From the NCBI RefSeq assembly GCF_002770725.1, contig NZ_NQVN01000001.1, forward strand, positions 434,001 through 498,000: a stretch of 64,000 nt of DNA, given 5' to 3'. The notes below the pieces were generated by a model. The model did no database searches, had not been told where the DNA came from, and saw only the letters and a list, made by a program, of their open reading frames with translations. Within the stretch, counting starts at the first letter, position 1. The number at the start of each line of letters is the position of its first letter. Made by a program: the position numbers and the translations under genes. Of the stretch, positions 7,084-63,379 are shown piece after piece. This stretch comes from Pleomorphomonas carboxyditropha. GTDB taxonomy: Bacteria; Pseudomonadota; Alphaproteobacteria; Rhizobiales; Pleomorphomonadaceae.

Positions 7084-7470
7084 TTGCCGAGCGGAGGGGC
7101 GGTTTCGACCGGCAGCCGCCTGGCCGCGATCGGCGGCCCGAAGCGCCCGGCTCCGCCCCATATCTTTCAGTCTCCGAATTTTTCCAACCGCTTGGGAACA
7201 ATTTCCGTTTCCGCGAGTTTAGATAAGTTATGAAATAAGCTTGGGGCAAGGAAGGCGGGTAAATATTTTCTGATTTTTTGCAGGTCCACGCGATAATCAA
7301 AAGCGCTTTCTACGGGGAATTGCGTACAATTTAAGTATGACTTAAAAAGATAAGCCAAAATATATGCCAAAGAGGAATGGCGATTAAGTCTGATATTCCT
7401 TGAACGTCTTTGCGTACGTGTTATCTTTTCGGTGCAGTGTCGCGTCGAACGTATTTTGGGAGGATGTGTC
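7084..7470. other. AT-rich intergenic region with promoter and palindrome
   Basis: 387 bases without a supported gene. From about 7190 to 7440 the composition becomes much more AT-rich than the surrounding genes. It contains a palindrome TTTAAGT-ATG-ACTTAAA at 7330-7346 that could bind a regulator, and a promoter-like pair just before the next gene. The composition suggests foreign or regulatory DNA. Confidence 0.5.
7400..7427 (+). promoter_or_regulatory. Candidate sigma-70 promoter for the GIY-YIG-like gene
   Basis: TTGAAC at 7400-7405 and TATCTT at 7422-7427 are separated by 16 bases, a reasonable -35/-10 pair. It lies about 45 bases before the ribosome-binding site of the next gene. Assignment is by pattern only. 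Confidence 0.4.
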
Positions 7471-56778: not shown

Positions 56779-57882
<1,104 letters not shown>

Positions 57883-57946
57883 TCATGATTTGATCGATAC
57901 TCCGGCGCAAATTTGAGGCAGCCGGACGGACTGAAAGGAAGATCGG

Positions 57947-58381
57947 ATGGGTGGCAACGGCGACACGCGGCAGTCCGGGGAACTCGATACCGGCCTCCGG
58001 AGCAGGTTCGACGCCCGCCTGACGCTGGTGATCTACGTGCGCTTCCTGTCGGCGGTGTTCCTCGTGGCCGGTCTTTTGCGCTGGGCGACCATTCTCGGCT
58101 TCGGGGTTCCCAGCGGCAATTTCCTCACCCTGTCGTCGCCGGTCATCGTGGCGACGCTGTTTTTCGCCGTCGCCGATCTCGTCGCGGCGGTCGGCCTCTG
58201 GCTGCTCGCCTCGTGGGGCACCGTGGTGTGGATGATCAGCGCGTTGACCGAGACGGCGCTCTACAGCGCCTACAATCCGCAGTTCGGCCGCAACTATCCG
58301 CTGATGATCTTTCACATCGGCACCGTGGCGCTCTACGCCGTGCTGTCGGCTTACTACGAGCGGACGCGCGATCGTCTGTGA
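57947..58381 (+). CDS. DUF6163-like four-helix membrane protein
   Basis: A 144-residue protein with four hydrophobic helices starting at LTLVIYVRFLSAVFLVAGLL and ending LYAVLSAYYERTR. It carries a hydrophilic N-terminus (MGGNGDTRQSGELDTG). Such proteins lie beside ldtR in Hyphomicrobiales; the DUF assignment is from memory and neighbourhood. Function unknown. It precedes ldtR by 302 bases, so separate transcription is likely. Confidence 0.75.
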   Translation: MGGNGDTRQSGELDTGLRSRFDARLTLVIYVRFLSAVFLVAGLLRWATILGFGVPSGNFLTLSSPVIVATLFFAVADLVAAVGLWLLASWGTVVWMISALTETALYSAYNPQFGRNYPLMIFHIGTVALYAVLSAYYERTRDRL

Positions 58382-58683
58382 GGGTCAACAAAGAGTTATT
58401 ACGTAAAATTTGCCAATTCGTCTCAACCGGCTTTCCCGGCCGGAGTCGGATCGATGAAAACTAGGTCGAATTTTGCGGGTTCTCGCTGAAATTCATGGGA
58501 GCGTTGGTCTTTTCGGGGCGTAAAGCCCTGCTTTACCAAAGCGAAGACTCGGGTGGGTTTGGAATCGCGTTAAACTAATATTCAGCTTGCCCCTTAAGCC
58601 GATTTTCAAAGCTCTCGGCTACTGTCGTGATCAAGGCGGACAAAGAGCCGCATCCAAAAAGTACGACAGAGAGGCTTTCCACC
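58382..58683. other. Upstream region of ldtR
   Basis: 302 AT-rich bases. It contains a palindrome GTAAAG-CCCTG-CTTTAC at 58520-58536 and a CCGGCTTTCCCGGCCGG hairpin near 58427. A GTG at 58627 is in frame with ldtR but the ATG at 58684 has the better ribosome-binding site (AGAGAGG). No other gene seen. Confidence 0.5.
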
Positions 58684-59199
58684 ATGGCCAACGCCAAGCG
58701 CGCCTATGATCTTTACGCTACCGAGCCCGAAGAAGAGCAGGGCCTTCAACCGCTCTATCTCGAGGCCCTCCGCCTCGTCGAGCGCCTGCATCGCCGCCTG
58801 CTCGACGTCATCAAGGACGAATTCGACCGTTCGGGCCGCACCGACGTCAACGCCGTTCAGGCGCTGCTGCTGTTCAACATCGGCGACAGCGAGCTGACGG
58901 CCGGCGAGCTCCGGACGCGCGGCTACTACCTGGGTTCCAATGTTTCCTACAATCTCAAGAAGCTGGTTGAGATGGGATACATTCATCACCAGCGTTCGCG
59001 CATGGACCGCCGGTCGGTGCGCGTCAAGCTGACGGACAAGGGCCAGGCGATCGCCGACATCGTCGGCAAGCTCTACAACCGGCACATCATCTCGATCGAG
59101 ACGGTCGGCGGCATCAACCGCGACGACTTCAAGGTGCTCAACAAGTCGCTGCAGCGGCTGGAGCGCTTCTGGACCGACCAGATCCTCTATCGGCTGTAA
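58684..59199 (+). CDS. ldtR: MarR-type transcriptional regulator LdtR
   Basis: A 171-residue winged-helix regulator. The DNA-binding part runs through VNAVQALLLFNIGDSELTAGEL, RGYYLGSNVSYNLKKLVEMGYI (recognition helix) and RSRMDRRSVRVKLTDKGQ (wing). The start motif MANAKRAYDLYATEPEEEQ is the conserved LdtR N-terminus. In Liberibacter asiaticus LdtR regulates the L,D-transpeptidase gene ldtP and osmotic tolerance. The same pair is here, with the transpeptidase downstream on the same strand beyond a 670-base region. Confidence 0.93.
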   Translation: MANAKRAYDLYATEPEEEQGLQPLYLEALRLVERLHRRLLDVIKDEFDRSGRTDVNAVQALLLFNIGDSELTAGELRTRGYYLGSNVSYNLKKLVEMGYIHHQRSRMDRRSVRVKLTDKGQAIADIVGKLYNRHIISIETVGGINRDDFKVLNKSLQRLERFWTDQILYRL

Positions 59200-59357
59200 G
59201 AGCGCTTCCCGAAGCGTTCGCTTATCCAGGCTGCGGCCGCCGTGCGCCAACGGCGGCCGTTCCGCTTTCGGCGGCCGGGGCTTCTCCAGAACGGGCGTCG
59301 GAGGGGAGCGACCTGAAAGATGATGCGTTCAATGTTTTGTGAATAGTCGTCAATCCA

Positions 59358-59373
59358 CTGTCAAATATGACAG
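59358..59373. promoter_or_regulatory. Palindrome CTGTCA-AATA-TGACAG, candidate LdtR operator
   Basis: A perfect 6-base inverted repeat with 4-base spacer, 160 bases after ldtR and about 130 bases before the RNA. MarR-family dimers bind such palindromes, so LdtR is a reasonable candidate, by location only. Confidence 0.4.
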
Positions 59374-59448
59374 GGACAGTTCGAAGAAGACAATATCCGT
59401 AGAAGATGCCCGTCAGGGTGAACGCCGATACATGTCTTTTCTGGTCCA

Positions 59449-59463
59449 TTAACTATTTTTTAA
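59449..59463 (+). promoter_or_regulatory. CtrA-type binding site TTAA-N7-TTAA
   Basis: TTAA-CTATTTT-TTAA matches the consensus exactly, in an AT-rich stretch just upstream of the predicted RNA 5' end (about 30 bases before). Suggests cell-cycle-linked control. Confidence 0.5.
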
Positions 59464-59490
59464 CGTTTTGATGCCAATTGTTAAGTGTAT

Positions 59491-59608
59491 CGAGCATGTC
59501 GGTTGGAATGCTTCCTCCCCTTTCCCGAGACCGGATGCCTCGAACGTCTCAACTCCTCCCGAGACGCACGACTTGGCCCTGGGCGCCCTCTGCGCTCAGG
59601 GCCTTTTC
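59491..59608 (+). ncRNA. Putative anti-Shine-Dalgarno small RNA (suhB/alpha-r14, 'cuckoo' type)
   Basis: Three hairpins in about 118 bases. Hairpin one pairs CGGTT-GGAA (59500-59508) with TTCC...GACCG and exposes CTTCCTCCCC (59511-59520). Hairpin two is a perfect CGTCTC/GAGACG stem (59545-59550 with 59561-59566) exposing AACTCCTCCC. The third is a strong terminator with T4. Two exposed CCTCC loops complementary to ribosome-binding sites are the defining feature of the alphaproteobacterial suhB/alpha-r14 and cuckoo RNA groups; I cannot verify family membership without a covariance search. The 5' end is approximate. Confidence 0.65.
59575..59607 (+). terminator. Strong terminator of the small RNA
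   Basis: GGCCCTG-G-GCGC (59575-59586) pairs with GCGC-T-CAGGGCC (59592-59603), 12 pairs with one G-T, loop of five, then TTTT. It is 376 bases beyond ldtR and before ldtP, so it most likely ends a separate short transcript. Confidence 0.85.
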
Positions 59609-59869
59609 ATGTGCTTTTGCTGCCATGCCGTTTGATCGGGTCTGGCCTGCGCGGCGGCGGAGGGCTGTAGACAGTCCTCGATTTCGCCACGAATTGCCGA
59701 TAAACGGCGAGCCATTGAAGCTGTCGTGCGAATCCGTCGCAGGCGCTTCGTTTACGCGGGAATCCGCCGGAAAGGCTCCGTTAACCAAGGCCGTTGTCCA
59801 TTAGGCCGAGGTTTCAGGCGCCCCTGGCCGTTTTCCCGGCGTCAGAACGGTTCGATCTGGAGTGCGGTC

Positions 59870-61153
59870 GTGAAGGGATCATTTTTGTCGATGGCGGCAA
59901 GCCGCCGCGGGGTGCTCAAGGCTGGCATCGCCGGAGTGACGGCGCTGGCGGCTACCGCCTCGAAGGCTCAAACGCTGCTGGCCCAGACCGAATGGACAGA
60001 AGGGTTCGACGTTTCCGCTCCCGCCGACCTGTCGGGGCAGTCGACCCGGCCGTCGCTCTCCGGCCAGTCGGGTTTCTACACCGAGCAGGCGATCTCCCAG
60101 TATTCCTCCATCGCCATGCAGGGCGGCTGGCCGCAGGTGCCGGCCGGCGGCACGCTGCGGGTCGGTATGGAGAGCCCGACCGTCGCCGCCTTGCGCCAGC
60201 GGCTGATGATCACCGGCGACCTCGACCAGAGCGCCGGCATCTCGACCGCCTATGACACGTTCGTCGACGGCGCCGTCCGCCGCTTCCAGGCCCGCCACGG
60301 CATCATCGCCACCGGCGCGGTCGACGATGCGACGCTGCGCCAGCTCAACGTGCCGGTCGAGACGCGCATCCAGCAGCTTCAGCTCAACCTGATCCGCTTG
60401 CAGACCCTGCCCAATCCGCTCGGCGGCAATAGCGACCGCTACGTGATGGTCAACGTGCCCGGCGCCGAGATCGAGACCATCGACGGCGACACCGTCCATT
60501 CGCGCCATCGCGGCGTGGTCGGCAAGATCGACCGGCAGACGCCGCTGCTCAACACCAAGATCACCGTCATCCGCTTCTTCCCCTATTGGACGGTTCCCAA
60601 GAGCATCATCCTCAAGGATCTGATCCCGCAGATGCAGAAGGACCCGGCCTATCTCGACCGGCAGAAGATCCACGTGTTCGACCCGCGCTCGGGCACCGAG
60701 GTGGCCTGGCAGTCGATCGACTGGCGGACCGACCAGGCGGTCAACTACATGTTCCGCCAGGAGCCGGGCGAACTCAATTCCATGGGCACGGTGAAGATCG
60801 ACTTCCCGTCGCCGGAAGGCGTCTACATGCACGATACGCCGAGTAAGGGCCTGTTCGGCGGCAACGACCGCTTCAATTCCTCGGGTTGCGTGCGCGTGCA
60901 GAACGTCCGCGAATACGTCTACTGGATCCTGAAGAATACGCCCGACTGGCCGAAGGACCGCATCACCGAGGCGCTGACCTCCGGCGAGCGCGTCGACGCG
61001 CCGGTGGCCGATCCGGTGCCGCTCTACTTCCAGTACATCACCGCCTGGGCGACGCCGAACAACACCGTCGAGTTCCGCGACGACATCTACCAGCGCGACG
61101 GCCTCGGTGTGCCGAGCTTGCCCGAGGCGCAGAGCCAGGCACAGGCCGGCTGA
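59870..61153 (+). CDS. L,D-transpeptidase with peptidoglycan-binding domain (LdtP-like), Tat-exported
   Basis: A 427-residue cell-wall enzyme of the YcbB type. The N-terminus has a twin-arginine signal (SRRGVLKAGIAGVTALAATA). A PG_binding_1 domain follows (VAALRQRLMITGDLDQ, AVRRFQARHGIIATGAVDDATL), then the YkuD catalytic part ending in NSSGCVRVQN with the nucleophilic Cys and upstream MHDTPSKGLF His region. A GTG start was chosen after GGAG; an ATG seven codons downstream is possible and keeps the Tat motif. It is the likely target of LdtR and the second L,D-transpeptidase of this window. Confidence 0.92.
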   Translation: MKGSFLSMAASRRGVLKAGIAGVTALAATASKAQTLLAQTEWTEGFDVSAPADLSGQSTRPSLSGQSGFYTEQAISQYSSIAMQGGWPQVPAGGTLRVGMESPTVAALRQRLMITGDLDQSAGISTAYDTFVDGAVRRFQARHGIIATGAVDDATLRQLNVPVETRIQQLQLNLIRLQTLPNPLGGNSDRYVMVNVPGAEIETIDGDTVHSRHRGVVGKIDRQTPLLNTKITVIRFFPYWTVPKSIILKDLIPQMQKDPAYLDRQKIHVFDPRSGTEVAWQSIDWRTDQAVNYMFRQEPGELNSMGTVKIDFPSPEGVYMHDTPSKGLFGGNDRFNSSGCVRVQNVREYVYWILKNTPDWPKDRITEALTSGERVDAPVADPVPLYFQYITAWATPNNTVEFRDDIYQRDGLGVPSLPEAQSQAQAG

Positions 61154-61180
61154 ATTCCGCCGCGTTTCATGCTAGCTTCG

Positions 61181-61210
61181 GCCCGTCCGGTACCACCGGG
61201 CGGGCTTTTT
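61181..61210 (+). terminator. Strong terminator after the LdtP-like gene
   Basis: An 11-pair stem (GCCCGTCCGGT with ACCGGGCGGGC, loop ACC) is followed by TTTTT. It begins 27 bases after the stop codon. Confidence 0.88.
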
Positions 61211-61225
61211 GCTTGAAGGTGCCGC

Positions 61226-61450
61226 ATGGCGGGAGAGCGTGAGGTCTATTTCGAGTTCGTCGCTCTCGGCAACGCCGTGCGCGTCTCGGCCATCTGCTCG
61301 GTCACCGGCGTCGAGGTGCAGGTGATCGGCCCGCTTGGCGCCGCCCGCCACGATCTCGAGCGGCTGGCGCTCAGGAAGCTGGAGCGACGGCTCGCCGACA
61401 CCGATGCGCCGCCGCTGCCCGCCGATGGCCGGGGAGGTTTTTCGGTCTAG
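61226..61450 (+). CDS. Small conserved protein (DUF6898-like)
   Basis: A 74-residue protein: VYFEFVALGNAVRVSAICSVTGVEVQVIGP is followed by a helix RHDLERLALRKLERRLAD. Such short proteins occur next to L,D-transpeptidase and glyA genes in Hyphomicrobiales; the DUF name is from memory and tentative. It begins soon after the terminator, and its stop directly abuts the next gene's ATG, suggesting coexpression. Function unknown. Confidence 0.72.
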   Translation: MAGEREVYFEFVALGNAVRVSAICSVTGVEVQVIGPLGAARHDLERLALRKLERRLADTDAPPLPADGRGGFSV

Positions 61451-61909
61451 ATGCGCCCCGAGCTTGCCGAAACCCTCGCCTTTCTTCACCGTCTCGCCAA
61501 ACGGGCCGGGGTCGCGCCCCTCTTGTTCGGCACGGCCGTTCTCGAGCTCCGGGGCATCGGCGACTTCCGGGCCGGCGATCTCGACGTGATCGTCGATGCG
61601 GACGAGGCAAGGCGGCTGGCGGCGGCGGCCGGCGTCGACCCGGGCGGGGAGAGCGGCAACGACACATTCCGGTCGCTGGTGCATCTTCATCTCGACGGCG
61701 CGCCGCTCGTCATCGACGTGATGGCCGGCATGAGCATTCGCACCGCCGGCGGCTGGAGGCTCTACGAGGTGGAGGAGACGGCGGAGATCGACGTGGGCGG
61801 CAGACGGTTTCGCGCGGCCTCGCTCGCCGACCTCGGGCGATTCTATCGGCTGGCCGCCCGGGCGAAGGACGACGCGAAGATCGCCGCGCTCGACGCCGTA
61901 TCCGCCTGA
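61451..61909 (+). CDS. Nucleotidyltransferase-fold protein
   Basis: A 152-residue protein with features of minimal nucleotidyltransferases: VAPLLFGTAVLELRG with a G[ST]-type start, then GDLDVIVDADEA carrying the Asp-x-Asp metal pair, a third acidic strand LVIDVMAG, and a C-terminal LADLGRFYRLAARAKDDAKIAALDA helix as in AbiEii-like proteins. It starts right after the preceding stop codon. The target is unknown and no antitoxin partner is evident; the preceding 74-residue protein could be a partner but this is speculation. Confidence 0.65.
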   Translation: MRPELAETLAFLHRLAKRAGVAPLLFGTAVLELRGIGDFRAGDLDVIVDADEARRLAAAAGVDPGGESGNDTFRSLVHLHLDGAPLVIDVMAGMSIRTAGGWRLYEVEETAEIDVGGRRFRAASLADLGRFYRLAARAKDDAKIAALDAVSA

Positions 61910-62083
61910 GCCGGCCGCATATTCGATTTAAGCAGGTCTGCCGGCCGCCGGATGGGCGGTCCTCAGGTTGATGGCAACCCCCGCCCGTGATAAGCGACCC
62001 CCGTCACGGGCGCGCGTGGCGCCGGGGCATTTCGTCCCGGTTCGTCCGGCCCAAGAACGTCCCTTGACGGAACGGAAACCCAA

Positions 62084-63379
62084 ATGTCCAACACGACCAG
62101 CGCAGAGCTTGCCAACTTCTTCCATAGCTCCCTCGCCGAGGCCGATCCCGCGATCGCCTCCGCAGTGGCGAAGGAGCTCGGTCGTCAGCAGCATGAAATC
62201 GAACTGATCGCTTCGGAGAACATCGTCTCCAAGGCGGTTCTCGAGGCGCAGGGTTCCGTTCTGACCAACAAGTATGCCGAGGGTTACCCAGGTAAACGCT
62301 ATTACGGCGGTTGCCAGTACGTCGACATCGCCGAGAACCTGGCCATCGAGCGCGCCAACGCGCTGTTCGGCAGCAAGTTCGCCAACGTGCAGCCCAATTC
62401 GGGCAGCCAGGCCAACCAGGCGGTGTTCCTGGCGCTGGCGCAGCCGGGCGACACGGTGCTCGGCCTCGACCTCGCCTCCGGCGGTCACCTGACGCACGGC
62501 GCCAAGCCGAACATGTCGGGTAAGTGGTTCCACGCGGTCACCTACGGCGTCCGCGCCCAGGACCATCGCATCGACATGGACCAGCTCGCCGCGCTGGCCA
62601 GGGAGCACAAGCCGAAGATCATCATCGCCGGCGGCTCGGCCTACAGCCGCGTCTGGGACTTCGCCGCCTTCCGCGCCATCGCCGACGAGGTGGGCGCCTA
62701 CCTGATGGTGGACATGGCCCACTTCGCGGGCCTGGTGGCGGCCGGCGAGCATCCCTCGCCGTTCCCGCATGCCCACGTCGTCACCACCACCACCCACAAG
62801 ACGCTGCGCGGACCGCGCGGCGGCATGGTGCTGACCAACGACGAGGACATCGCCAAGAAGATCAACTCGGCGGTGTTCCCCGGCCTGCAGGGTGGCCCGC
62901 TGATGCACGTCATCGCCGGCAAGGCGGTGGCGCTGCTCGAGGCGGCGCAGCCGGCCTACAAGACCTACATCAAGGCGGTGGTGGAAAACGCCCGCGTGCT
63001 GTCGGACGAATTGAAGCGCGGCGGCGTCGATATCGTCTCCGGCGGCACCGACAACCACCTGATGCTGGTCGACCTGCGCCCGAAGGGGCTCACCGGCAAG
63101 GTGGTGGAAGCGGCGCTCGGCCGCGCCGACATCACCTGCAACAAGAACGGCGTGCCGTTCGATCCGGAGAAGCCGACCATCACCTCCGGCATCCGCCTCG
63201 GCTCGCCGGCCGCCACCTCGCGCGGCTTCGGCGCCGGCGAGTTCAAGGAGATCGCCAACCTGATCCTGCAGGTGCTCGACGGCCTGAAGGTCAACGGCGA
63301 GGACAGGAACGACGGCGTCGAGGCGGCGGTGAAGCGGCGCGTCAAGGCGCTGACCGACGCCTTCCCGATCTACGGCTGA
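62084..63379 (+). CDS. glyA: Serine hydroxymethyltransferase
   Basis: A 431-residue pyridoxal-phosphate enzyme interconverting serine and glycine with tetrahydrofolate. Canonical motifs: [36 protein letters not shown], and the cofactor Lys in [14 protein letters not shown]. Length is normal. The 174-base upstream region is GC-rich and no riboswitch was recognised. In many alphaproteobacteria nrdR follows; here a penicillin-binding protein gene follows after a terminator. Confidence 0.97.

Follow-up and report, generated by a model that had tools for sequence, protein, structure and literature searches.

Within the 64 kb stretch of DNA that was analysed (the window), a MarR-family regulator gene, ldtR, and an L,D-transpeptidase gene, ldt, lie on the same strand. 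The region between them carries a palindrome, a CtrA-type box and a predicted small RNA (sRNA) gene. The features are as follows:

58684..59199, + strand: ldtR, MarR-family regulator (NCBIfam equivalog NF047395, 287.5 bits against a cut-off of 250)
59358..59373, no strand: 16 bp palindrome CTGTCA-N4-TGACAG, found in 13 of 13 inner-clade loci
59449..59463, + strand: CtrA-type box TTAA-N7-TTAA, exact in 13 of 16 loci, the other 3 having a single mismatch
59460..59486, + strand: putative promoter read from the sequence, with the second TTAAC half-site as -35, a 15 bp spacer and TTAAGT as a weak -10
59490..59607, + strand: sRNA gene of about 115-118 nt (fold z-score, column invariance, matches to covariance model R1)
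59490..59543, + strand: hairpin 1, with CUUCCUCCCC in its loop (predicted fold; counterpart with another stem in genomes G006, G007 and G014)
59545..59566, + strand: hairpin 2, CGUCUCAACUCCUCCCGAGACG, with an invariant stem and a nearly invariant loop (fold and alignment)
59575..59607, + strand: intrinsic terminator with 12 pairs, a 5-base loop and TTTT (fold; the terminator listing agrees)
59870..61153, + strand: L,D-transpeptidase gene (ldt, ldtP-like), GTG start, YkuD and PG_binding_1 domains

The sole NCBIfam match of ldt was PRK10594, below its cut-off. Upstream of ldtR is a gene for a DUF6163 protein (57947-58381), which adjoins ldtR in 10 of 11 loci.

Structure and conservation of the predicted RNA

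The initial annotation had described two hairpins with CCTCC loops at 59491-59608 and a 12-pair terminator with four T residues in a region free of genes, and our analysis recovered this structure. The fold of 59488-59612 had an energy of -53.2 kcal/mol (z -4.16), equalled by 0 of 200 shuffles. The predicted fold of 59490-59607 consists of hairpins 1 and 2, both exposing UCCUCCC, with CCTCC cores at 59514-59518 and 59555-59559, and then the 12-pair terminator. Folded alone, the terminator (59575-59607) reached z -5.96 and hairpin 2 z -2.04. On energy alone the least supported part is hairpin 1: its full extent (59488-59544) reached z -1.97, with 11 of 200 shuffles as good, and a truncated version (59498-59543) z +0.81. 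A further CCTCC occurs in the terminator loop of 9 of 13 inner-clade loci and is absent from that of the window. No gene is evident in the RNA region, where overlapping open reading frames (ORFs) differ in length from locus to locus, yet one forward frame is free of stops in 11 of 11 loci.

The case for the RNA had been staked on conservation of its loops and terminator in relatives, and both are conserved. Across 11 distinct loci of the genus (alignment A1), 103 of the 120 columns at 59488-59607 are invariant, as are 22 of 22 in hairpin 2. Loci L013 and L014, nearly identical to L003 and L012, are left out of both A1 and the conservation count. The flanks are less invariant in the same 11 loci (15 of 153 columns at 59200-59352, 18 of 74 at 59375-59448 and 116 of 262 at 59608-59869). 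Comparison of the ldtR-ldt intergenic region across genomes, also proposed initially, identified the RNA as its most conserved 120-base stretch; the top windows hold 105 invariant columns and start at 59475-59480.

A DNA search of 60 genomes, among them that of the window, located the region in 11, each belonging to the same genus, and an LdtR query (best 80 of 566 loci) returned L013 and L014 with the same element. Model R1 gave one match each in 13 of the 14 genus genomes (the window's own counted), scoring 144-160 bits in 11 of them, 46 bits in G006 and 33 bits in G007. The only genus genome with no match, G001, also had no ldtR match in its assembly. At an E-value of 0.001, 17 of 397 genomes of the order matched R1: 13 of the genus, G014 from a neighbouring genus (E 2.6e-4) and three weak cases. 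We rejected as members G225, G351 and G136 (28-31 bits) and a 22-bit match at G014:C6:1188001, as the stretches examined held no ldt match. Among 26 loci run, including 13 ldtR loci of other genomes, ldtR regions outside the clade scored below 15 bits. The core motif of hairpin 2 occurs once each in 13 of 14 genus genomes and in G014, and in 1 of the other 382, with none in the reversed control.

Alignment A2, which takes in 10 of the 16 loci, contains two-sided changes at 5 of the 12 terminator pairs. Its covariation score was reached by 0 of 500 shuffles and its five two-sided pairs by 2 of 500, while the number of further pair types was not above shuffles (467 of 500 reached it). Both helices had 96.1% of cells paired, compared to 21-62% for slid versions, a comparison tilted towards the structure since it was taken from the window itself. 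Hairpin 2 showed no covariation in A2; its stem is constant in the paired cells and so yields no such evidence. As this stem stays constant while the others drift, its letters appear to matter, either for target pairing or for a protein. In G006, G007 and G014 the stems of hairpin 1 and the terminator differ but the order of three hairpins is kept (z -4.5, -3.8 and -3.6, respectively; hairpin 1 alone, -3.0, -1.4 and -2.0). The UCCUCCC loops persist in G006 and G007 despite these changed stems. The first hairpin of G014 is compound, with UUCCUCUCCCC rather than UCCUCCC in its loop and CCUCCC in an inner bulge.

Upstream elements and linkage to ldt

The CtrA-type site noted upstream in the initial annotation is conserved in all 16 loci, the three single-mismatch cases included, at the near-fixed distance of 105, 107 or 112 bp before the hairpin-2 loop (L013 and L014 are counted here, as near-duplicates of L003 and L012). 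TTAA-N7-TTAA has 2 matches in the 64 kb window compared to 0.00 expected from 100 shuffles, the only other one being at 7331-7345. Ten of the 16 loci also read TTAACCAT, which together with TTAA-N7-TTAA makes up the pair of CtrA motifs that PMC11527210 uses. A box followed by two CCTCC sequences was found in 11 of 14 genus genomes and in 0 of 14 reversed controls. Outside the genus we take this pattern to be chance, since it occurred in 14 of 383 genomes compared to 25 of 383 in the reversed control. A CtrA-type box before a good ar14 match in G017 was likewise judged to be chance; it lies inside a CIN1-type locus with DUF1127 (the latter identified by eye).

A second CtrA half-site that overlaps the -35 element, with a weak -10 downstream, is the layout expected of a CtrA-activated promoter. 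The -10 element read here, TTAAGT, is poor (3 of 6 by eye), and a sigma-70 promoter scan listed no + strand site at 59460-59486. From this arrangement the RNA would be expected to start near 59490-59493. By its sequence motif, the locus has at its putative promoter the CtrA-type box expected of a CtrA-controlled gene.

Further upstream, TGTCA-N4-TGACA precedes the CtrA-type box by 90-91 bp, or by 101 bp in L011, in 13 of 13 inner-clade loci. It has 2 exact occurrences in the whole genome, occurs in 0 of 78 other ldtR downstream regions (one only 18 bases long) and is absent from the examined stretches of the outer loci G006, G007 and G014. This palindrome may be the operator of an additional regulator, upstream of the predicted sRNA promoter. 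We rejected it as an LdtR site because it is missing from those 78 regions and is unlike the Liberibacter LdtR footprint as given in PMC3999280.

The RNA was described initially as lying between ldtR and an L,D-transpeptidase gene. Both gene identities were confirmed, and the arrangement holds in 13 inner-clade loci, but the steady neighbour is ldt rather than ldtR: in all 16 loci examined the RNA is directly upstream of ldt on the same strand. In G014, about 736 kb separate ldtR (C6:314508) from the RNA (C6:1051121), which is directly upstream of ldt and retains its box. In G006 the two are on different contigs, with 981 bases between ldtR and its contig end and 1373 bases ahead of the RNA on the other, so that at least ~2.3 kb would separate them were the contigs adjacent, and in G007 the RNA-bearing contig opens with the tail of ldtR (by eye). 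Since the RNA stays with ldt in G014 while ldtR is elsewhere, and G006 is likewise split, we regard ldt as its stable partner.

This constant position, kept even in G014, is what a cis-acting leader or attenuator of ldt would show, with transcription starting near 59490, usually stopping at the terminator and reading through into ldt upon a signal. We consider such a leader unlikely. The RNA has its own terminator, which ends 262 bases short of the GTG start of ldt and points to a separate unit; the predicted folds inspected held no competing anti-terminator; and the conserved C-rich anti-Shine-Dalgarno (anti-SD) loops are needless for a leader. Moreover, the conserved block at 59680-59699 could be ldt's own promoter. 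Two such blocks lie between the sRNA terminator and ldt, at 59680-59699 (16 of 20 columns invariant) and 59620-59639 (12 of 20), and are possibly a promoter of ldt or an LdtR site.

Less probable still is an origin by processing from the ldtR transcript's 3' end, in which case the RNA would lack a promoter. The RNA is on the ldtR strand about 290 bases past that gene, and single hairpins with C-rich loops follow ldtR in two Chthonobacter-type genomes. However, ldtR has a strong hairpin of its own just 3' of the gene (59233-59260, z -2.47; 12 of 20 columns invariant at 59240-59259), which is probably its terminator, the CtrA-type box sits at a near-fixed distance just before the RNA, and in G014 the RNA exists with no ldtR upstream. 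Outside the clade, hairpins with CCTCC loops within 200 bases past ldtR come close to the chance level (7 of 77 loci compared to 194 of 3850 mononucleotide shuffles, or 5%), and an ancestral anti-SD hairpin at the ldtR 3' end was on these counts not convincing. In these two genomes, which belong to a neighbouring genus, L165 (1160-1250) and L166 (1440-1503) carry a C-rich-loop hairpin and a terminator directly after ldtR, with no CtrA-type box seen.

Relation to known small RNA families

The RNA had been assigned initially to the anti-SD sRNAs of the suhB, alpha-r14 and cuckoo kind. The anti-SD type and the RNA's own terminator are upheld, but membership in suhB, ar14 or CcsR1 is not. The Rfam search that had been recommended, with RF00519 (suhB) foremost, gave no match at 57000-62000 up to E = 1, and the only RF00519 match of the genome is on contig C18. 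The ar14 model (RF02344) scored 29.0 bits in the window against a gathering threshold of 58.8, and 30.2-33.8 bits, also below threshold, in 12 of 12 inner-clade relatives; G006, G007 and G014 had no ar14 match up to E 0.1. CcsR1 (RF02791) scored 22.1 bits in the window against a threshold of 65.3. Up to E 0.1 it matched 5 of 12 relatives at 24.6-29.7 bits, and it scored 28.5 bits in G006, all below that threshold. Matches to sX13 (RF02232) in three relatives, at 31-35 bits against 50, were taken as C-rich hairpin similarity. With scores below the cut-offs, the RNA would work like alpha-r14, cuckoo or CcsR RNAs but have no formal membership.

The closest likeness is to alpha-r14 and its member NfeR1, which share with the window RNA a length of ~120 nt, C-rich anti-SD hairpin loops and candidate ABC-transporter targets (as described in PMC10746234), as well as a C-rich terminator loop, seen in 9 of 13 inner-clade loci. 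According to the same source, the hallmark of ar14 is three hairpins, each with CCUCCUCCC unpaired. In the window, loops 1 and 2 match 8 of its 9 positions and the terminator loop has no CCTCC. The window RNA thus differs in having no exact CCUCCUCCC, in carrying a CtrA-type box instead of the NfeR1 promoter motif, and in its invariant hairpin-2 stem, whereas the stems of alpha-r14 vary. The NfeR1 sigma-70 motif, CTTAGAC-N17-CTATAT, was not found near the RNA with up to 3 mismatches; 4 matches lay elsewhere in the window, with 1.61 expected.

The cuckoo locus, with CcsR1-4 or CIN1 and the DUF1127 protein CcaF1, also has anti-SD hairpins. Directly upstream of the window RNA there is no DUF1127 gene such as defines CIN1, its neighbours being ldtR and the L,D-transpeptidase gene, and it apparently has its own promoter. 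Elsewhere, the RNA's own genome has a CIN1-type array at G000:C2 ~62700-63230 (L125 2199-2730), where a 52-aa DUF1127 protein (PF06568) is followed by nine CCTCC clusters and then trmFO (by eye). Eight of these clusters contain CCTCCTCCC, which is CCUCCUCCC in full, and the array exceeds the four-RNA CcsR cluster of Rhodobacter in its number of hairpins. The ar14 matches of 12 of 14 genus genomes coincide with dense CCTCC arrays (15-20 per 800 bases). The window RNA appears to add a separately wired member to the genome's anti-SD repertoire.

Other sRNAs resemble it in part. CcnA of Caulobacter crescentus also combines a CtrA box with a C-rich loop, but is described as a 182 nt RNA at the replication origin with CCCC in loop A and with ctrA and gcrA as targets (PMC8959179); we claim no homology. 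SuhB, alpha-r8 (SisA-D, MmgR) and AbcR share the anti-SD logic but have other reported architectures (PMC7143759, PMC12559287), alpha-r8 and AbcR being compared by description. PmaR of Agrobacterium likewise has a C-rich loop and targets cell-wall genes and ampC, but reportedly acts for the most part away from ribosome sites and is flanked by two hypothetical ORFs (PMC6234868). Among the literature matches listed, with subscription papers mostly outside their scope, no title or abstract described an sRNA at the ldtR-ldt locus. The RNA resembles a known small-RNA group but looks like its own branch of it.

C-rich loops could also serve as a sponge that titrates a G-rich regulatory RNA rather than mRNAs. 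Such stretches can meet RNA partners, since the G/A-rich CrfA of Caulobacter is reported to pair with the UUUCCUCCCU stretch of SisA-D (PMC12559287), but the alpha-r14 RNA NfeR1, which has loops of this kind, acts on mRNAs according to PMC7143759. We give the sponge as slim a chance as the processed ldtR 3' end. Hardly credible is a small coding gene or chance C-rich DNA: one forward core frame is open in 11 of 11 loci, but its ORF, counted from a GTG or TTG immediately ahead of the core, has 50 to 99 aa in 9 of the 11 and is cut off by the end of the extracted sequence in the other 2, indels of 1-2 bases occur in the terminator loop, and two-sided changes keep the terminator paired.

Candidate targets and proposed mechanism

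Whole-RNA duplex energies ignored self-folding and were uninformative. The earlier suggestion that ldtP is a target was not supported, as the energy of the loop-only duplex with the ldt start region was no better than for shuffled leaders, and the same was true of the start regions of ldtR, glyA and hemB. In the RNA's own genome, 4 ATG starts carry a 9-base complement to loop 1, compared to 0 in the reversed control, and 11 carry one to loop 2, compared to 4, so that the predicted target set is not separable from background. Twelve of these 15 starts open ORFs of at least 66 aa: eight ABC-transporter parts (one, L208, looks internal to its gene), two FGGY kinases, an L-rhamnose mutarotase and DegP. 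A canonical Shine-Dalgarno control gave 4 distinct ORFs of at least 66 aa, 1 of them ABC (three of the four were scanned), a set too small for ABC enrichment to be judged. A bias toward ABC-transporter targets is reported for NfeR1 (PMC10746234), and the likeness to it is suggestive only.

The locus combines a predicted structure, conservation across the clade, a covarying terminator, a box at near-fixed distance and linkage to ldt. There is good support for the RNA being gene-like, and an anti-SD mechanism and CtrA control are likely; we infer transcription, CtrA binding, target blocking and the biological role. On balance, the RNA is probably a trans-acting anti-SD sRNA, timed by CtrA, that represses mRNAs with G-rich ribosome sites. 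The locus would then encode an sRNA of ~115 nt that is started by a promoter of its own and ended by the intrinsic terminator. CtrA would most likely activate it at the 59449-59463 box, where the second half-site overlaps the -35. Activation there would tie production of the RNA to the part of the cell cycle in which CtrA is active. The C-rich loops UUCCUCCCC and ACUCCUCCC, joined by a third in the terminator loop of many relatives, would base-pair with ribosome-binding sites rich in G and keep a set of mRNAs from being translated, by analogy with alpha-r14/NfeR1 in Sinorhizobium. Likely targets would be genes with GGGAGGA-type sites, among them several ABC-transporter parts and sugar kinases as well as DegP, but not ldt.

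A broader reading is tentative, and we think it rather doubtful as a whole. It holds that a clade-specific, CtrA-driven anti-SD RNA family accompanies a single L,D-transpeptidase gene and lowers the translation of genes for nutrient uptake and the envelope along with the cell cycle, coordinating wall growth and uptake at one locus, and that hairpin 2, with its invariant stem and loop, is a dedicated module for recognising an mRNA or a protein, not a generic loop. For related anti-SD RNAs, the roles described are in stress or nitrogen regulation. The peptidoglycan of Hyphomicrobiales is reported to be unusually rich in LD-crosslinks (PMC11527210). If true, a CtrA-timed anti-SD RNA tied to a wall-crosslinking enzyme would, in Hyphomicrobiales, link wall growth and the control of translation to the cell cycle.
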